DNA from: Tetrahymena thermophila SB210
Taxonomy: Eukaryota > Ciliophora > Oligohymenophorea > Hymenostomatida > Tetrahymenidae
Reading direction: 5' to 3'
DNA length: 64,000 nt
Assembly: GCF_000189635.1 (NCBI RefSeq)
Contig: NW_002476221.1
Span: 1 to 64,000 of the forward strand
Numbering within the stretch: position 1 is the stretch's first letter; the number at the start of each line of letters is the position of its first letter. The position numbers and the translations under genes are program-made. The notes below the pieces were generated by a model that made no database searches, was not told the DNA's origin, and saw only the letters and a program-made list of their open reading frames with translations. Of the stretch, positions 1 to 61,838 are shown piece by piece.

Positions 1-168
1 CCCCAACCCCAACCCCAACCCCAACCCCAACCCCAACCCCAACCCCAACCCCAACCCCAACCCCAACCCCAACCCCAACCCCAACCCCAACCCCAACCCC
101 AACCCCAACCCCAACCCCAACCCCAACCCCAACCCCAACCCCAACCCCAACCCCAACCCCAACCCCAA
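1..168. repeat. Telomere, (CCCCAA)28
   Basis: Twenty-eight uninterrupted CCCCAA hexamers occupy the left edge and stop abruptly at a unique AT-rich sequence (CAGATAAAAT...). This is the C-strand of the GGGGTT telomere known from Tetrahymena. The left end of the window is therefore a true chromosome terminus of a macronuclear chromosome. The tract has no variant repeats, as expected for telomerase-added sequence. The first gene's stop codon lies only about 530 bases inward. Confidence 0.99.
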
Positions 169-695
169 CAGATAAAATATAACTATTATTCTTCTAATTT
201 AAGTAATCTTTTTCATATAATTCTTCAAATTGTTAATAATTAAAGAAAATTTTTTGGAGTTTTTAGAATTTGATAATCTAAAATAGTCAAAAACAATATT
301 TATTTATTGTCAATTTTAAAAATTCAATTTTATTGATTGATAACAATCAAATTATTTACTATGATATTAATTAAAAATTATTTCTTCACTTATTTAATTA
401 GCAATATATAATTTGATTAGAGATATTTAATATAATAATTACAGAATGATTAAATTTTAAATACAAAAATCTTTTCACTAGAACAAAATTTAAAAATAAT
501 TTAAAGAAATTCTATGTATGCTTGTTAAAATATTTCTATATTTAAGAACGATTAAAATTAAACAAGAAATGATTATTGATTAAAATTTAATATTTAATAC
601 ACTAAAAAATATAAATATTGATAAATATAAAGTTGTTTTGTTATTAGTTTGTAAAATTGATATTATTCAAACCTTTTAAACTAGATTGCTTAATC
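169..695. other. Subtelomeric AT-rich DNA, no gene seen
   Basis: This is AT-rich sequence between the telomere tract and the stop codon of the first gene. I see no open frame with protein-like composition under the ciliate code and no repeat array. It probably holds the 3' UTR of the minus-strand LysM gene and the short subtelomeric spacer. Confidence 0.7.
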
Positions 696-22257: not shown

Positions 22258-25200
22258 ATGTTTTAAAATGCTTATTAAGGAGGCACTCATGTAGAAATAT
22301 ATGATGCAAAAGGTATTAAAATATTTTCAATATTTTTGTTCCAATATAATAGATTTGTTTTAAAATCAGTCAACAAAGATAAAGAAAAAAGTTACGCAAA
22401 TCTCTATAGAATGACAACTCCTTAAGGATATTCAAAAGTATTTGATAAGGATATTAAAGGTATTAATATAAAAGAGGCATTAAAACTTAAGCAATGTACT
22501 TTTTTATATAAAAAGGATATATTTATAGCATAGATGGACATAGTACTAAAATGAGATTTCCAAAAGAAGATAAAATTGATTTATGTATAGTTTAGCATTT
22601 TCTTGTATTTTAGATTTATCTACCGTTTGGTTCACCTTGGAATTTAGAAATTGGCATAGCAGATACCTAAAAGGTAACAAAATTAGTTGATGTAGGATTA
22701 AACAATTACAAATTTTATTCATTAGGTAAATAGGAGAATTAATTTAGTAAGTGCTTTAAATAAAATAGAAACTAAGTATTTTCACGTTAAAGTCCCTAAC
22801 GATATTATTAGACGTGGAGAATGGTTAAACTTAAGTATAGACGTTAATAGTTTTATGGAAGCTTGGAAAGGTATTTGATAAATAGCATTAATTTTAGAAC
22901 AATTATATCATATTAAATATCAGTTAGTAAGTATTCATTCTAAAATATTTTGTTAAAAATTCAAGGATCCACTTTTCGTTCTATTGATAGTATAACAATC
23001 GGATCAACCTGTAGAATTCGTAGAATTTTTAGTATGAAGAATCCTCTTTTTGAGTTCAGTTCAGAAGATAATGCAGAAGAGCAAATGTATTTGCAATCCT
23101 CTTTATATAATTAATAAAAACCGTAAGATTGTATTTAAATTTTGTAAACATATAATAATAATCACAAATCATATATTAGAGAAGATATACCTAAAAATTT
23201 TGCCTTTCCACCTGGCTTTTAATATTCCAATCAGCTAGTGAATTATCAAAGAATTTTAGATAATGTTGATCCAAAATATCTTGAAAGTATAAGTGATTCT
23301 GTTGATACATTAAAAATGAATAATCCTGCTTCATCTGTCCCAAAATCAATGTATAAAAACTCTTTAACTAACAATACCAACAATGTTAAAGCTATTGCTA
23401 CAAAATCAATCAAATAAGGCATAGGCATTAATAATAGTGTATAAAAATCAATCCCAGATGTTACTCATGATTTTCATGAAAAATCAACTATGGGATAAAA
23501 GTAGATTGAAACATAGAAAAAATCATATGCTAGAATAGACAGAAGCCCTCCTTCTATCTAAAATACTTAATAGCAAAATTCTAAATATAATTCTTCAACT
23601 AAAAGAGAATCATCTATTTCAAGTAGTCATAATTTAGATGAAGAGCAAAAATATGATACTAACTTAACAAAGGCAAAACCTCGCTAAGCTTCAAGAGTGA
23701 TTAATATTATAATTCTTATTTTATCTACTAATAGTTTATTCAATTTGTTTTATTGTTGTAAAATAGGAACCTGTAAGACAATCTTTGAAAACATAGAAAC
23801 CCCCTTAACCACAAACCAATAATAATAACAATCTTTAGTAAGGGTAGCAGATATAAAAAAATATTCCTAAATCTCCAATAAGCTAGTCACTTAAATCACC
23901 AACTACATCACTTAAGGATATAAATTAACCACAAAATTCTTCATCGAGACAGCCAACAAAGAACTAATAAAGACAACCATCAACTTAAAAGAAAGAAACA
24001 TCAGCTAATATATAAAAAAACAATCCTTGGTATGCAGGTGTGAATAAAGGTCCTAAAAAGTAATTTGATGATAAAGGTTAAGAAGATAATGAAGAAATAG
24101 AAGAAAATTTGGAAGCAGAATATTACGATAAATATGAAATAGATGAAGAATTACCATAAACAATAAAAAAGAAAGAATCTAAAACAAATACTTCATCACC
24201 CTAGATATCTCAAAAAATGACCTAATAAAATGATAAAAATTTAAATAATTAAAATAAAAATAATCTAGGATAAGTTAAGAGTTAATAATTAAAAGAAAAA
24301 TCTTTAACTCAATAACTTGAATCTAAAAGAAATGTCAAAAGTGCAAATAATTTTGGAAAAAAGGCTTCATTAATTGACCCGAAAAAAACAAAGGAGGGAA
24401 ATAAAAAAGACATCCAAAAAAAAGAAAACCAAAATGATAAAAATTAGAATTTAGGATATGAAAACTAAAATGCATTTAACAGCATGAACACAGATTTAGA
24501 TGAAGAGAGTTATTTCTAACTAACTTAAAAATTTAATACAGTTAGCGATCCAAATCAATTTAAAGATCTCTTTGCAAATTCAAATCGTAAATAAAAATAA
24601 TAAGCCGAAGATTCTTATGGCCAGGGCGAATATGATGATTTAGATTAAAGAGAAATAGAAGAAGACATTGTTACTGATTAAAATCATAATAATCCATCTA
24701 TAAATAAAAATACAAGTCAAAATAAAACTACCACTAAAAATACTAATAATAATAATAATGCTAAGAGCTTCCTTAAACAAGATACTGTAGAGAGCAAAAA
24801 ATATTAAACAAACCGCGATTTCTCTGGAGAAAAGAAGAATTAATAGTTTGAAGATAGCCTCGAAGGACCTTACATTGAAAGAAACTTAGAAAACGATGAT
24901 GAAAATTATCAAGATGAGTTAAATGATAAGTATGCCTCCCCGGATAAGGATGATTAAGGAAATAACTACTCTAATCATAATATTTATGAAAATCATCTCA
25001 ACAAATTTATTAATAATTCATAAAGACCCTTTACACCTCCTTTTTAAGCAGTTGTTCCTTTGCAAGGAAGTTCAATAGTAACTAAAAAAAATAATTAAAC
25101 AGTAGTAATTCAAAATCAAGGCTATTATGAAGATGATGGAAATTACAAAAATGAATAAAATAAAAGCAATATTTCAAAAAAATCAAATAGAGTAGATAAT

Positions 25201-29976: not shown

Positions 29977-32322
29977 TCAGTTTTATTACATTTATTTACT
30001 TTGAACTGTAATTGATTTTGCATGTAAATTTGATATTTGAGAGGACTCATTGTCTGAAATTTAAGATTTGTTAATATTTAAGGATTTTGTGTTACCTTCT
30101 TGGGTTAACTCCTCCAATTTAACTCTTTCCAACTTCTAAACAGGGGCACTAGATGGTTTTCTACCTCCTAAAAGAATTTATGCAAGATTCATAATTGGAA
30201 TTTCAATAATTAAAGCAACTATTGCAGCAGCAATAAGGGTAAAGAAAAACTCAGAGAAGAACATTCCAATAAGATTTTCACTATCATAATAAACTGCATC
30301 CTTAGAGTACCACAAAGTGAAAAGAATAATAATGTAGTGAGTTAAGTAACCACCAAATGAAAGACGCTGTAAGAAAGCAAACAAAGTGTTGCTAAAGAAC
30401 TTAGCTATTAAATCCTTTGATCCAAGCATACCAGGAATCATAAAACAAGTTGTTGCAATAACGTACCATGTTCTGCAAGTTCCAAACCAGAAGTGCTAGA
30501 AATCAGCATTCCAGTAATCGTTTCCATGTACTTGCATCTAATGAGGAGCAAATACGAGTCCCATCCAGAGACCAAAACCTAATGCGTAGAAAATATATTT
30601 TCCAAGTGAGTGTCCAGCAAACTTTTACATTTTTGTCAAAATTCCATTGCATTTATTTTTAGCCTTATCAAACTAATGTTCCTTGTAAAGTATACCAAAG
30701 AAAAGTCCAACAAAATATGGAGAAATACGAGCCCAGGGTTTAATGTAATAATCTTCATAATAGTGGTCTAAGCTTAAAGCTTAGATATTTGAAGGAACCA
30801 TAAATTCATATTTGAATGATAAGTAAATAGAGACAGACTAGAAGACAGCGAAGCAAACACCAACAGAAATTTTTCCGATTAAACGATTATTTTAGTAAAT
30901 GATTAAAAGAATCATACCAAAAATAAACATCTAGAAATCATTAGATAAATACCATCCCCAAGGAACGCATTTTTTACCTTAACCTGGGAATAAGTTGTCT
31001 ATGAAAAGGAGATTTTACCACCAGCGTGTATCGCATAAAGCTGCTCCATGCATAAAGACATCCCAAGTGGGTGAAGAACCTACAAAGGGAGAAAGTCTCC
31101 AGTAAAACATCAAAACTAAAAAGTAACAAGGGAATATACGGAATACTCTGTTAATAATAGCAAACAAGAATGAAATTGCAGTCTTGACAGGTTTTTTCAT
31201 TGAAAAATTACGCTATTATTTTTCATCAGCGACAACATAAGCCAAGAAGAAACCACCTAACCAGAAAAATACATCAACAGAGTAAAGACAAGAAAAGAGG
31301 AAAAGTACAAATGATCTATTTTAAATGATCATCAAGTCTTAAGGATTACTCATGTAGTTCATGTGAAGATAGAATTCATGGCCAAAAATAACTTACATAA
31401 AGCAAAGAGAACGGATACCATTAAAAACAAGTAAATCGTCATTATTACTTTTTAATGTAAACATTTTTTTCACATTATCAGGCAAGTTCCAGCATTGAAC
31501 TACTCTCCACCAGAAGGGTTCTTTTTTGGGTCTTCCTGTTGCTGCTGCTACTTGACTAACAGTGTTGCCATTGGTCATACTAACAGATGGTTATGGTCCA
31601 GAGTAAGTATGAGATGGTCTAGAAATTTGAGAATTAGATTATGAAATCATACTTGTTGAAGTGGCTCCTTAAGTATAGTTAATTTGAGTTTAGTATCTAG
31701 TATTATCTTGTAAAATGGCTTTATCTTTCTTTCTTTGAAGCAATTTTAAGATAGGAGCTAAAATAGAGCATGTGCTTACTAAAACTATAGTAAATAGTGC
31801 TATAATATATCCAGCTGTAGCCTTTGATTAAGTATCTTCCTAATAAGGGACATATGTAATAACTGTTTAATTATCTCCTTCAGTTAAATTAACTTAAAAT
31901 TCAGGAGGTTTAGGTATATCTTGCTAGTGAGGGAATATATCTTTAATTGTTTATAGAATCTTTAAAAGTTCGGCTGTTGCCAATTAAGAATTGCTATTCA
32001 TGACTTCTGCATTACAAACTTCGTACATACAAAATCCTAAATAATATTCTAAGTTATTAGGCAAGGTTAAAGTTAATCTAACAAATGTCATTTAAGGAAG
32101 GCTGCGACATTTTTCAACATCTCCTTCGTCATTAAGCGTTCTTCCAGAATATAATAAAGTATTTCCGAAAGTAGGTGGCAAAGGTTTTTTATTAGCTATA
32201 CTATTACTGATACTGTCTAAATAAGTTTGGCATAAAGTGAAATCAGTGCTTTAAGATAATCCTTATCCAAATATACTGAAAACTATTACCAATCCTATGA
32301 AAAATTTATAGGTAAATTTCAT
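29977..32322 (-). CDS. Acyltransferase-3 membrane protein with NRF-type N-terminus
   Basis: This is an intronless frame of 781 residues. It begins with a signal peptide (MKFTYKFFIGLVIVFSIFGQ). A Cys-containing luminal region follows (CQTYLDSI, EKCRSLPQ, FCMYEVCNAEV), as in nose-resistant-to-fluoxetine (NRF-6) proteins, then a transmembrane helix (ATAGYIIALFTIVLVSTCSI). The acyltransferase-3 domain starts at FNGIRSLCFMQVIFGHEFYL, carrying the GIR...H pair considered essential in the family. It continues with VDVFFWLGGFFLAYV, RVFRIFPCYFLVLMFYW, WGWYLSNDFQMFIFGMILL and several more membrane helices to about residue 720. The cytosolic tail is Ser/Gln-rich. The family transfers acyl groups to extracellular or luminal substrates. 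The substrate here is unknown. Codon use is less AT-skewed than in neighbouring low-complexity genes, which suggests good expression. Confidence 0.93.
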
Positions 32323-34068
32323 TTTTTGAAAACAAGTTTGAGTGAGCAGGGTTTTTACCTTTAATTTGCTTGCTTAATGAAATTTAATTTGATTTTTCTG
32401 ATTTTGTGAATTATCTTTTTCTCTAAATATTAATTATTTACCAAAAAAAATACGAATTTCATATAAATATTCGTTTATGATTGATAAAAGCTTTAAAGGT
32501 AGTAAATATCTTTACTTTATGTAATATGATGCAATTCATCAAGTATACCACCTAATAAGATACCTAATTTATTAAATTAAATTTTTCAGATTCTGTCGCC
32601 GATTAGACTGTACTTTATATATCAATAAAAGAATTTACTACTATTTATTAAATCATTAGCATTTATTTATGTAATGTATAGTAATTCTTTTATTATATTC
32701 CTATCTGAATATAAAATATCTTCAAGCTTTAAACCATCTAAAATTTAATCAAAATTGAATACATTTAAATTTATTTTTCACCTCTTAAAATGAAAAATTG
32801 TAATTCATTTATTTAATAAGAATAAACAAAAGATTATTCACTTTAAATTAATATCATCAAATTAGCTTTTACATAATCAATTAAATAAATATTCGATAAT
32901 TTTTCTTATGAGTGTAACTTATAAAAAAATAAAAAGAATTACTTAAATACTAATCACACATATTATTAAAAAATAATAAATTAAAGTTTATTAATTCCAA
33001 AATATATTTTGTTATATTTTACTAATTTTAGATAGTATAGACTTGCTTAGATTAAAAATAAAATGAAAAATACTTTTATAAATTAATAAAAAAATTTTTT
33101 TATGAGTAAATTGGTTTTAATCTACTAAAAATCAATATTTATTTAAAGATCTTTATATATTTAAATTAATTAACTTTATTACCATTTATTGATAATTTTT
33201 AAGATTATTTATAAAAGTTTCAAAAGATAAATTTATTTAATTTTTAAAATTGGATCTAAAAATTTTTAAATAAAGAATATTTTTGTTGTACTTTACTTTA
33301 CATTTAAATAAAAACTTAAATATTAAGTACAGTTTTAACTTGCATATCTCAATAAAAGGAAAAATTATAAAAAGCAATTTATTCTCAAAAATTAATTAAA
33401 AAATTATTAGTATTTTTCTTTATAAATTTTAAATTAATTGATATTACAATTCAGAAAAAAATAAATTATTTTTAAGCTGAATTAACTACTTTATTATTTT
33501 GTGGTAGTATTCCTGATTTAAGAAATAAAAACTCAAATTTTTTATTTATTTAATCAATCAATTTTTTTCTTCTTTTTTTTAAATTACAGTTATTTTTTGA
33601 TTTTTATGTTGAATATTTATAAAATTTGTATTATAAGAAATAAAAGATTTTCAAAAAGTAATAATTAAATGAGATAATCTTAAATATAAATATTAGAAAA
33701 ATAATAAATTGTGTTTTTAGTATTTTTATAATTTAAGTATTTTTAATAATTATTTTTTCTATGTTACATGTATTTGTATCAAAATATTATTTTTTTTGAG
33801 ACCATTTATCTAACTTGTAAATTCTATTTTGAGTATCTACTATAAAAAAATATAATTATGTGACAATTTGCATATTTTTAACTATTTATTGCAATATTTT
33901 TTACTTTTTTTATAAAGTTTAACGTTATTTATCTTTAAAAGTAAAAAACAACAAAACCAGTTAAATTTTTATTAAAAAAATAAATACTTAAAAAATTAAT
34001 ACTTTTAAACATCTAATCAATTAAAAAAATAAAATAGCTTTGAAATAATTTTAAGTAAAATAAAAGAA
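32323..34068. other. Divergent intergenic region, ~1.7 kb
   Basis: This AT-rich spacer separates the divergent acyltransferase and CFAP97-like genes. It contains long A/T runs and no protein-like frame on either strand under the ciliate code. Confidence 0.7.
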
Positions 34069-42712: not shown

Positions 42713-45700
42713 ATGAGCATTTTAGCAAATGGAGCATAGCCACTAATAGCATTAACTCAATATGATTAAACAGCGATAAATACTTATACATAGTAATAAT
42801 TATCATCTCCTTCAGTAGCAACAGTGATGCCACAGAATCAAAATTTAGGTGTATATGAAAATTAAAAATTAATAGATATTAGTAAATAGGATCTATTATA
42901 TAATAATAATTAGGCTAAATAATAGCAAACAAATATTGGCTACTAAACTCAAATGTATTTTTTTTCTTCATTTTTTCGAAAAATAATGATATTAATACTT
43001 TTATTAAAAATAGGAATTATGAATAAAGCAAAATCTAAGAAGCAAATAATTAAAATTCAACTCATTTAGATCACTAAAAAAAAAGAGAAGAAAGTACTAA
43101 ACAATATTCAGCAGATAAATATCGCCATAGTAGGAAAAAACGCTCTTCATCATCTTCTTAGCACTCTGCTAAAAGAAGTAGAAGTCGTTCAAAAGATAAG
43201 AAAAAATACAACAAAGACTCAGGAAAATAATCTTCTAAAAATTAAAATCATTAAAACTCTTCACATCATAAAACCTATCCTAAACCTCCAACTATAAATG
43301 AAGGTAACAATATTTTTATTTAAATTAAAACTCCTAATTGAATATTTATGCTAAATTTTAATCAATCAAACTAAAAAATATTTACTTTTTAATTTTTTTT
43401 ATGTGATGTTTAAAGCAATAAACTTTAGTCTTTCTTTTATTTCGATGAAATATTGTATAAATAATACCTTTTTGATACGATAAAGACTTATTTAATAATT
43501 CAGTTTTGATTAAAAGGGATTAAGCTTGCAATTTAGAAAAAAGTGAACTAATAATTATTATAAAATGCTAGCAATATTTTTTTCTAATCAATCACTTATT
43601 TAATAATTTAGTATTATTATTAATTTTTAACCACATTAATTCATTTGTGTGTTTTCAAAAAATTTAGCAATTTATTATTACAATATTTTATTTTTAAAAT
43701 TTTAAGATATAAAAGTTTAAGATATTTAGTTCTTTCTATTTAAAAAACGATTTTAAGAATTAAATTTCCTTTTATTTTATTTTTTCATCGATTTAATAAT
43801 ATTAAATTATTGTTTTTTAAAGAATTAGGTGATTGGAAATGCTTTGAGTGTGGAAATTGGAACTTTGCTAAAAGAGTAAATTGTAATATATGCTAGCATG
43901 CGAAAGCTGACAAAAAAAAGAATAGTAATTAGGGATCTTAATCTTCTAATCATTAAGGAAATAGTCATCACAGTAATAGTCATCACCATCATTAATCTTC
44001 ACAGTCTCATATACAATAAAAAAACCACCAAATAAATAATCATCATTCTAGCTAAAAAGAAGATATCAAGCATTCTTCTCATAGTCATCATAATTCTCAT
44101 CATCATTACCATCATGATAGTAAAAAGTCTAGAAGAAGCAGAGAACGCTCGCATGATAATCAAAGCTCTCATGATTTAAATAGAGGGCATCATCATCGTT
44201 CTTCATACACAGATTTAGCTTCTATTGATGATAATAAGCGCCATGATGTTGGGAATCATAAAAATTAAATGAAAACTAATTACTCTAATAAGCATGAGGA
44301 TGATTATCACAAAAGAAATAATCACTAATCTCATCACTAAAACAGTAGTATGTATTAACACACAAATAATAATAATGTTCATTAAAATCATTACAACCAT
44401 ACTAATTCTAGCCATAATTTAAGTAATAATAACTCACATATGAGTAATCACCATCACCATCATAGCAGTAGTCATCATCATAGTAATAATAACCATCATC
44501 ACCATAATACTAGCTATAATAATTATGGAACTAATTATCACAGTTAAAAAGGAGATAGATAAGATGATTATTAAAACGATTATGATAGAAAAAAAGATCA
44601 TACCCATAGTAGCAGAGACAAAAAGTATGATCACTCTTCTAATTCATAAAATTAAAATAACAATCATAGTAATAATTATCATAATAGCCATAATAGTAAT
44701 TATTAAAATAATGGACATTATAGATAATCATCTTAAGAAAGGCACCATAATTCAAATAGTCATAATTATTCTAATACTAATAATTAGCATTAAAGTGGAG
44801 GTAATTACCATTAGGGTGGTAATAATCATCACTAGAGTGGAAATTATCATCACTAAAGTGGAGGTCATCACCATTAAAGTGGAAATCACCATCATCAAAC
44901 AGGAAATCATCACCATTCTAGTGGAAATCATCATCATTCCAGTGGAAATCATCATCATTCCAGTGGTAATCATCATCATTCCAGTGGAAATCATCATCAT
45001 TCTAGCGGAAACCATCATTAGAGCTAAAGTCACCATCATTCAAGTAGTAATCATCACCATTCAAATGGAAGCCATCATCATTCCAGTGGACATCATCATA
45101 ATTCAAGTGGACATCATCATAATTCAAGTGGAAATCATCATCATCATCATTCAAGCGGAAATCATCACCATTCAAGTGGAAGTAATCATTAAAATGGAAA
45201 TTAATATCATTCAAGCAATAATCATCACCAAAACAGCAATAATTATCATAGTTAAAGTAGCAACCATCTTAATCATCATTCAAGTAATAACAGTCATCAC
45301 TCTAGTAACCACAATCATTAAAATGATAGTCATCATCAATAAAATAATAATCAACACCACTAAAGTAGCCATCACCAAAACAATTAATTACAAAATTAGC
45401 AAAATAATAATTAAAATAATAATCCTAATTATTTAAATAACAATAATCACAATTTAAGTGTTAGTAGTCAGCAATAAAGTAGTAATAATCAGCTTAACAA
45501 TAGTAATCATTAAAATTAAGCAATGCATCATAATTAGAATAGTAACTAAGGATAGAATATTGATCATTATGGAAATAATCATTTAAATACAAATTAGATA
45601 AGCAGTAACAGAAAAGATTATGAGGATTAGAGTTATAATCATTAATACAGCAACCAAAATAATGATAACTAAGCTTATACAAATAAAATTATTTCTTAAT

Positions 45701-46896
45701 CTAATCAAAACTCTGTAAATAATGTTAATAGCAACAATTAATTTGAATATAATTAGCTTTAACAACAAAATTAATAAAATATACAATAGTATAACTAAGC
45801 AAATTCTGTTAGTAGCTATCAAATTAATTAAGGATATTAAGATTAATAACTGCAAAGTCCTTATCCGTAATAATAATAATAATAGTAATAATAATATTAG
45901 TAGACTAACTAAAATTTAGGTAATTAATCATAATACAACTAAAACTAACAGAATTTGAATCATAGTGGTTAAATTTAACAATAATATCAGTCTTCCTAGC
46001 AACAAAATTAATAATATATTATGAATAACTAATAAAACTAACAAAACAATCCTTAAGTATAGTAAAATAACTAAGTTCAATAACCTTAAAATTATCCTTA
46101 TCAAAGTAATTAATAAATCTTAGAAAATAAAAATGAATTTTATAATAATAGCTATTAAGGATTTTAATAAAAAGTTAGTGAAAGTAGAGGACATAGCCAA
46201 CATCATAATAGAAATTCTTCTCCCTCAATAATTTAATAACAATAGCAATAATAAAACTTCTAATAATTGTCAGGATTTTAACAAAATGTGTATGAATATG
46301 ACAAACCATACTAATAATTAGAAAATAAATCTTAGTAAGAGTAATATTTATAATAAAAGACTTGCATTAATGAGCAAAATAATTAATAATTTGTAGATCA
46401 ATAGTATATTAAACATTAAAAAGTTAGTGAAAATAGACAAGAAAACTACACATCTTCTTTTTCAAATAATAATTAAATTAATGAGAATATTTAACCTTAA
46501 TAAAGATAAAATATATCATAAACACCTAGTAGTGTGTAAATTAAATAAAACAATTCAATATAGAACTCAACTGGCAATTAAGCAAATAGTAACATCTCAA
46601 ATGATAGATCTTCATATTCTTAATCTAAAAAATCTCATAACCATAGTCATAAAAGCGAAAAAAAAGACAGCTCTGAAAATAGATCAAATCAAAAGAAACC
46701 ATTTTAAAAAAAGGAAGGGGACTGGGTATATTTTTCGATACTTGCTAATTATTTTATAATTTTTTAAATTAACAATTTTAATTTAAATTACTAAATTAAT
46801 GTAATAATTTATAATAAATAGGTTTGTCATAAATGCAAAAATATAAACTATGCTCGTAGAGATGAATGTAATCTTTGTAAGGAAAAGAAAAAATGA
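42713..46896 (+). CDS. Two RanBP2-type zinc fingers flanking a ~950-residue His/Asn/Ser repeat domain
   Basis: Four exons join exactly in phase: 42713-42954, 43014-43303, 43829-46725 and 46822-46896, giving 1,167 residues. An N-terminal Arg/Ser/Lys-rich region (KKRSSSSSQHSAKRSRSRSK) precedes finger 1, DWKCFECGNWNFAKRVNCNIC, at about residue 178. The very C-terminus is finger 2, DWVCHKCKNINYARRDECNLC, followed by KEKKK and TGA. Both fit W-x-C-x2-C-x3-N-x6-C-x2-C perfectly. Such fingers bind single-stranded RNA (ZRANB2, FUS type) or ubiquitin. The Arg residues after Tyr/Phe-Ala favour RNA. Between them lies a very long His/Asn/Ser/Gln/Gly-rich domain, including a tandem GNHHHSS repeat. The RS-like segment plus paired fingers recalls splicing factors such as ZRANB2, but the order differs. 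The 525-base intron 2 is unusually long for this window. Confidence 0.9.
44798..45192 (+). repeat. In-frame 21-base minisatellite encoding GNHHHSS
   Basis: Degenerate tandem units of 21 bases (GGAAATCATCATCATTCCAG type) lie in frame within exon 3 of the zinc-finger gene. The most regular copies run from 44902 to about 45022. Outer copies drift to GGHHHQS, GHHHNSS and SGNHHHHHSS. The CAT-rich units leave the other five frames largely free of stops. They therefore generate spurious Ile/Val-rich plus-strand frames and Met/Ile-rich antisense frames. Confidence 0.9.
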
Positions 46897-47955
46897 TAAT
46901 TTAATATATTTTTTAGGTAATAACAAAAGAAAAAAAAGATAAAGATAAATATATTTAATAGTATAAAAAGATTATATCTTTATTAATAATAATAAAATAG
47001 TATAAAACTTTGGATTAGGCTATGTTAAAAATATTATTTTTTAGAAATGATGATAACCTACCTAATTAAGAACCTTTTTAATTGAATATGTAACTTAAAA
47101 AACATATTTTGATACTAACTATTAATTTAGTAAAAAGTAATTAATACTATATAACTCAACTAAAATTAAATTCGAAATTATTTAAAAAATATAAAAAACA
47201 AACTACAAACAACAGTATTAAAACTAACCATTATAATATATTTACAGAAAATATTTTAAATTAAATTCTAATAATAATTGCTATTTTAATTTTATATATT
47301 CACTATATATTACAAGATAATGAAATAATTTTAATTAATTCCTAGTAAGCTGTTTTGGTATCAACTCTATATTTTTAAAATAATCAAATTTTTTGATGTT
47401 ATAAATATTTAGATATTTATTAGTTATTCCTTAACTTTTGCTTTCTAAAATTATTCTCTTTTTTTTCTAATAGATATTATGTATTAAAGTATAGATATAA
47501 TTTATTAACAAAAAATAATATAACTGAAGTTATAAACAATTTATTTTATTCAAGCTTTATGAATTTTTTTTTTTAATTTAAAACAATAAATAATTAATAA
47601 TTAATTTAAAAAAACCATGAAAAATAAATAAACTCTGATAATATAAATGAAGAAAGTAAGTAATAAAAAACAAATTATTCTTGAAAGAAACATAAAAAAT
47701 AAATATGTATGTAGTAAATACTATTTCTATATAAATGATTCATTTGCAACAATCGTTTAGTATTATCTTTATTAATTTTAATATAATAGAAAATAAGAAT
47801 GGGTTTTTTATTTAGAAAATAAAGTAGGTATGTATTTATTGCCTTGATTATTAGATAAATTGTTGATTTTTGTTGTTGTTGTTGTTGAAGTTAATGTTAG
47901 TATAACTAATAAGAATTAAGAAATGTGATATTTTCTTTTAAAATATCAAAGTCTT
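46897..47955. other. Convergent intergenic region
   Basis: About 1 kb of AT-rich DNA lies between the zinc-finger and AGC kinase 3' ends. A short TTG microsatellite (47872-47887) lies just past the kinase stop codon, in its likely 3' UTR. Nothing else is recognised. Confidence 0.65.

Positions 47956-50613
<2,658 letters not shown>

Positions 50614-57894: not shown

Positions 57895-61838
<3,944 letters not shown>

Follow-up and report, generated by a model that had tools for sequence, protein, structure and literature searches.

In human ZRANB2 (also called ZNF265 or ZIS), an SR-like splicing factor, two RanBP2-type zinc fingers sit close together near the N-terminus, and the FET proteins (FUS, EWS and TAF15) share a layout of RanBP2 finger plus low-complexity region, with one finger and an RRM. 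ZRANB2 has been reported to carry, besides its two fingers, a Glu-rich domain and an Arg/Ser-rich (RS) domain at the C-terminus (PMC3384923), to bind single-stranded AGGUAA and to alter splicing (PMC3384923, PMC7049692). Among nuclear human polyhistidine (polyHis) proteins, 15 of 22 are reported to go to nuclear speckles, and in HeLa cells GFP fusions with 6 His were seen weakly, and those with 9 His clearly, in these bodies (PMC2644819); the histidine-rich domain of cyclin T1 has been found to support phase separation (PMC8257543). Here we describe a gene at positions 42713 to 46896, on the plus strand, of a 64,000-nucleotide stretch of the ciliate Tetrahymena thermophila SB210 (positions 1 to 64,000 of contig NW_002476221.1, hereafter the window). 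His tracts are a nuclear-speckle signal in human proteins, RanBP2 fingers of this kind read splice-site-like RNA, and this one ciliate protein joins both. We propose that it is a nuclear RNA-binding protein that resembles ZRANB2 in function, with a finger at each end, RS patches, a His tract followed by a Gln/Asn (Q/N)-rich tail, and a place in nuclear bodies, a reading that we hold with somewhat more belief than doubt. The product is probably an RNA-processing protein, predicted from its sequence to gather in such bodies.

Long open frames emerge in the window once UAA and UAG are read as Gln (genetic code 6). Under this code the gene begins at the first ATG of its open frame (42713) and ends with a TGA at 46894-46896, and its four predicted exons encode 1167 residues. 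The parts of the gene are as follows.

42713..42954 (+), exon 1, a Q/N-rich N-terminus without a known domain (a Pfam scan of residues 1-300 returned PF00641 only)
42955..43013 (+), putative intron 1, 59 bases, GT..AG, 13.6% G+C
43014..43303 (+), exon 2, containing the basic Arg/Ser patch
43123..43206 (+), Arg/Ser-rich basic patch, RHSRKKRSSSSSQHSAKRSRSRSKDKKK, residues 118-145, resembling a nuclear localization signal or RS segment by inspection
43304..43828 (+), putative intron 2, 525 bases, GT..AG, 15.8% G+C
43829..46725 (+), exon 3, 2897 bases, with finger 1, the entire low-complexity spacer and the opening three residues of finger 2
43829..43893 (+), finger 1, GDWKCFECGNWNFAKRVNCNIC, residues 178-199, the first base of Gly178 being at 43303
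43906..45276 (+), His/Ser/Asn-rich region, residues 204-660, 120 His in 457
44119..44154 (+), further basic RS patch, residues 275-286
44779..45188 (+), minisatellite of period 21, 19.4 copies, 75% matches, NHHHSSG-type units
45277..46713 (+), Q/N-rich region, residues 661-1139, 26 His in 479
46717..46878 (+), finger 2, GDW joined to VCHKCKNINYARRDECNLC, residues 1141-1162, made of 46717-46725 joined to 46822-46878
46726..46821 (+), putative intron 3, 96 bases, GT..AG, 10.4% G+C, interrupting finger 2 right after GDW
46822..46896 (+), exon 4, including the TGA stop

The three predicted introns have a G+C content of 10-16%, versus 26-28% for the exons; for intron 1, an alternative acceptor at 43028 likewise preserves the frame. 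The open frame around exon 3 runs to 1128 residues; across 60 order-2 resamples of the window, the longest frame averaged 466 and never exceeded 642. Frame length alone proves nothing, however, since an antisense open frame of 1029 residues (44069-47155, minus strand) overlaps the gene and is also long. We ruled out this antisense frame as coding on two grounds: in it the variable base of the repeat would be the second of the codon, and the fingers lie on the plus strand. It is probably no gene, arising as an effect of TGA being the sole stop and of the CAT-rich repeat. A single exon with 965 whole codons runs from finger 1 into finger 2, of which it encodes the opening three residues. Because this exon joins the fingers and its repeat shows coding-frame constraint (see below), the location of both fingers in a single gene is supported, given the predicted splicing. 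A first-pass annotation, made from the letters of the window by a model, had treated the fingers as parts of one gene and had given limits for it that coincide exactly with the ATG and TGA of our model.

Both fingers fit the reported RanBP2 finger consensus core, W-x-C-x(2,4)-C-x3-N-x6-C-x2-C (PMC7154859). Across the six unspliced frames of the window the Cys pattern matches once (finger 1; finger 2 requires splicing), versus no match in 60 order-2 resamples. The full motif of finger 2, GDWVCHKCKNINYARRDECNLC, starts at residue 1141 and is followed by five residues after its last Cys, so that the fingers lie where the first-pass annotation had put them, near residue 178 and at the extreme C-terminus. 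That annotation had also called both fingers perfect, which is true of the Cys pattern in each but overstates their scores against Pfam PF00641, whose gathering cut-off is 27 bits: finger 2 is over it (E 5.2e-7, 29.2 bits) and finger 1 under it (E 5.4e-5, 22.8 bits). A single-sequence structure prediction for finger 1 (mean predicted local distance difference test score, 67; predicted template modeling score, 0.32; helices and no zinc ribbon) was set aside as uninformative.

Among PDB sequences, ZRANB2/ZNF265 was the top match of finger 1 (E 2.8e-5) and of finger 2 (E 2.5e-7). The residues with which RanBP2 fingers read GGU are reported to be D4, N14, R19, R20 and N24 (PMC6384913). In the alignment, finger 2 carries the complete set (D, N, R, R, N), and finger 1 carries four of these residues plus R19K (D, N, K, R, N); RBM5 is also described as having K at position 19, and it binds GGG (PMC6384913). 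Since the fingers are closest to ZRANB2 and retain its RNA-contacting residues, RNA binding by them, which the first-pass annotation had proposed for the protein, is well supported by inference, and we predict that they belong to the single-stranded RNA-binding (GGU) subgroup. The fingers were also placed in the context of the genome (101,022,631 bases in 445 contigs, the window being the start of contig C280) through searches by family and by peptide in six unspliced frames, keeping the best candidates only, so that all finger counts for the genome are lower bounds. With human ZRANB2 finger 2 as the query, finger 2 of the window ranked first and finger 1 third of six matches.

The spacer between the fingers is 941 residues long. 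The first-pass annotation had described about 950 residues of His/Asn/Ser repeat, which is close in length but suggests a uniformity that the spacer does not have, as it is His-rich over residues 204-660 and then Q/N-rich over residues 661-1139. The exceptional His-richness that it had remarked on is borne out, with a peak of 44 His per 100 residues versus 13 for the next best frame and 10 at the 99th percentile, in a sample comprising the 693 open frames with 100 or more amino acids from a six-frame translation of 124,243 bases (~0.12% of the genome, made up of the window plus eight loci, of which seven were chosen for carrying fingers). The whole protein contains 155 His in 1167 residues. 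Residues 204-516 hold 65 of these, so the His-richness reaches outside the minisatellite array, and the core tract (residues 517-660) holds 55 in 144 residues, with zero K, R, D or E. Extended His tracts, defined as a pure run of at least five His with less than 50% interruptions (PMC2644819), are found at residues 385-403 (12 of 19 His) and 614-625 (8 of 12 His), and by this sequence definition the predicted product is an extended polyHis protein. The spacer as a whole is of low complexity and probably disordered. The Arg/Ser-rich N-terminal patch that had been noted at first pass is the one at residues 118-145; of the 16 SR or RS dipeptides in the protein, seven lie at residues 120-139 and three in residues 661-1139.

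The 21-base minisatellite, likewise recorded at first pass, carries a signature of its reading frame. We compared each site in the span 44779-45260 with the site one lag on, wherever local identity was at least 75%, with the lags set on DNA. At lag 21, differences were found at 15 of 68 third codon positions versus 9 of 140 first and second positions (Fisher p 0.002), and at lag 42 at 18 of 54 versus 11 of 108 (p 0.0008), p-values that are nominal because the sites are non-independent and a CAT/CAC transition bias could contribute. When all similar pairs of 21-base segments were counted, the third-position excess was strong at 81% identity (67, 37 and 130 differences at codon positions 1, 2 and 3) and weak at 70% (449, 281 and 538). 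Every similar pair within the array sits at an offset divisible by 3. As the units differ chiefly at codon position 3, the amino acids look selected, and the most economical interpretation is plus-frame translation of the array with its amino acids kept. The first-pass annotation had seen scope for length polymorphism in the array. Its copies match at only 75% on average, a level that suggests an array in large part old and not freshly unstable. An initial count, in which 84 of 97 single-change codon pairs were synonymous, was discarded because the units had been picked by their amino acids.

Under the proposed mechanism, each zinc finger would bind a single-stranded, GGU-containing site resembling a 5' splice site, such as AGGUAA in the case of ZRANB2. 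Because the fingers stand at opposite ends of ~940 low-complexity, probably disordered residues, they could grip two RNA sites that lie well apart, or two separate RNA molecules. The Arg/Ser patches would direct the protein to the nucleus and to the pre-mRNA machinery; the combination of such patches with RNA-type fingers points to nuclear pre-mRNA as the likely target and to a possible role in its processing. The His-rich tract with its Q/N-rich tail would then concentrate the protein in nuclear bodies. Nuclear condensation is plausible but unproved, the plausibility coming from the two extended His tracts and, by analogy, from the passage of human His tracts to nuclear speckles. If true, the proposal would suggest that His-driven nuclear localization either is ancient or has arisen more than once, and the gene would offer a simple natural design for bridging two RNA sites, in a cell that is easily tagged.

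Several points tell against this proposal, besides the finger 1 score and the reservations on the repeat statistics given above. A search of the whole genome with PF00641 (unspliced, E up to 0.001) returned four matches and neither of the window fingers among them, and the window was not among the three matches to human ZRANB2 finger 1 (on C248, C138 and C389). Most of the contact residues are kept by other fingers of the genome too, so this gene is not alone in having the RNA-type set. After training on 831 codons from conserved genes of the window, a codon-usage model ranked the annotated frame first among the three sense frames in six of six exon pieces, but it scored an antisense frame higher still in five of the six (0.458 versus -0.002 in the His segment) and therefore counts as weak evidence. 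The His signal and nuclear speckles are established for human cells. Even there, GFP with 5 His is reported to have failed to localize in HeLa cells (PMC2644819), and the longest pure His runs of the window protein are two of 5, with mostly HHH triplets elsewhere. Unlike the squid His-rich proteins, which are described as Tyr-dependent (PMC6884462), the core tract has few aromatics, 3 in 144 residues. Finally, a survey of the ciliate Stentor gives SRSF1-12 as N/A (PMC9505925), so a ciliate equivalent of the speckle is not assured.

Further RanBP2-type fingers were found on at least contigs C442, C154, C214, C138, C389, C309 and C248. The C154 finger lacks the RNA-contact residues, and the fingers on C309, C389 and C138 have an aromatic residue (Phe or Tyr) at position 19. 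The C309 gene (L018, minus strand) has fingers between ~3280 and 5790, ~2.35 kb apart in DNA. Its first finger, near the frame start, is GDWVCLLCNNLNFSFRNECNRC, completed across a putative 94-base intron; its second is QDWICPRCTNLNYSFRKLCNKC, with 25 residues between the last Cys and the frame end. The 94-base intron shifts the frame and a second predicted intron could restore it, with 42 GT..AG choices, the first six of which give 688-731 residues between the fingers. Since both introns are predicted and the second has so many choices, it is likely, though not proved, that these fingers belong to one gene. This gene would resemble that of the window in having RanBP2 fingers close to both ends of a single open frame, and would differ from it in having Phe at finger position 19, only 1% His in its frame, and a spacer that is Q/N-rich without His-richness. 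The double-ended layout thus probably occurs at least twice in the genome, and the His-rich spacer was met once.

Two other finger genes were recorded in passing. One, on C248 (L021, minus strand), has two closer fingers, the first of which has C-x-C, not C-x2-C, and may be degenerate or a variant ribbon. The other (L001, on C442) is RS-rich, with a RanBP2 finger and a zinc-finger-like C-terminal end, and looks RBM5/RBM10-like by inspection.

The spacer of the window protein could instead be mostly neutral low-complexity filler of an AT-rich genome, with the fingers alone mattering, and a His tract that is inert would be an ordinary low-complexity insertion. Q/N-rich sequence is indeed common around fingers in this genome (N+Q make up 25-32% of the frame in four other finger genes, and 17% of the finger frames on C154 and C214), and the array is a tandem repeat of the kind that replication slippage can make. 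None of the other 692 frames comes near the His density, however, and the His-richness continues past the array, whose similar units differ mainly at third codon positions and recur in step with the codons; on balance we regard the filler explanation as rather unlikely. Another alternative is a FET-like transcription or RNA factor, built from a prion-like region and a RanBP2 finger. Such a protein would account for the long Q/N/S/Y low-complexity region and for fingers that, among PDB sequences, also match FUS and TAF15 (finger 2 to FUS with E 6.7e-6). Pfam scans, which covered residues 1-300 and 1071-1167, turned up no RRM, and it is other fingers of the genome, on C309, C389 and C138, that have the aromatic position 19. 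The window protein has two fingers, with K or R at position 19 like RBM5 and ZRANB2, versus the W reported for EWS and FUS (PMC6384913). By the features compared it is not a FET protein, and we consider this explanation very improbable.

The same finger residues bear on the idea of a metal-binding protein, in which the His tract would buffer zinc, copper or nickel and the fingers would make protein-protein contacts. The His content of the protein invites it, and HHH clusters could chelate metals, but the fingers retain RNA-contact residues that the C154 finger of the same genome lacks; we give this idea as little credence as the FET-like one. A bolder extension of the RNA-binding proposal is that ciliates have a class of double-ended RanBP2-finger scaffolds for bridging RNA, with long, interchangeable disordered spacers, the window gene being a His-rich member that may regulate itself and is possibly tunable by pH or metal, a response that the first-pass annotation had suggested. 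We think this distinctly unlikely, if less so than the two preceding ideas. The possibility of self-regulation comes from the 5' splice site of intron 2, AAG/GTAAC (the slash marking the exon-intron boundary), which contains AGGTAA (43302-43307), the ZRANB2 hexamer. This occurrence may be chance, since the window carries AGGTAA 25 times on its plus strand, three of these within the gene, and GGT is less frequent in the gene than in the window.

Set beside the described systems, the nuclear RNA-binding protein that we favor assembles familiar parts in an uncommon order, around an extreme spacer. It is like ZRANB2 in its two RanBP2-type fingers with GGU-contact residues and in its Arg/Ser-rich segments. 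It differs in that its fingers are 941 residues apart, with finger 2 at the C-terminus, in its added His/Q/N spacer, and in that its RS patches (residues 118-145 and 275-286) lie in the N-terminal quarter; in place of C-terminal RS and Glu-rich domains, residues 661-1139 are Q/N-rich. Because its finger spacing and RS position depart from the ZRANB2 architecture, we describe the protein as one that most likely works like ZRANB2 and stop short of calling it an orthologue. With the FET proteins it shares the combination of a RanBP2 finger and a low-complexity region. Like the polyHis speckle proteins cyclin T1, DYRK1A and YY1, it has extended, interrupted His tracts outside folded domains, and it differs from them as reported in being an RNA-finger protein of a ciliate whose His region, at ~457 residues, is far longer than the human tracts (PMC2644819). 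Among the matches listed in the open-licence literature on Tetrahymena, judged by titles and the starts of abstracts, no paper dealt with the gene; a printed mention is possible.

Tandem Repeats Finder reported CCCCAA at 1..169 (+) of the window, in 28.2 copies with 100% matches. This is the Tetrahymena-type telomere repeat, so the window opens at a macronuclear chromosome end. Elsewhere in the genome, contig C67 carries a telomerase RNA of the ciliate family, matched across the full model of Rfam RF00025 and agreeing in its letters with that of T. thermophila. Downstream of the finger gene and convergent to it lies an AGC-type protein kinase gene (48336-49334, minus strand; PF00069), whose best PDB matches are RAC and PKA kinases. 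Further along, pieces of a DUSP/UCH ubiquitin peptidase at 58333-61835 (+) are probably one gene. Upstream, the window contains an acyltransferase gene (PF01757) at 29980-32535 (-) and a CFA20-domain gene at 22446-24065 (+).

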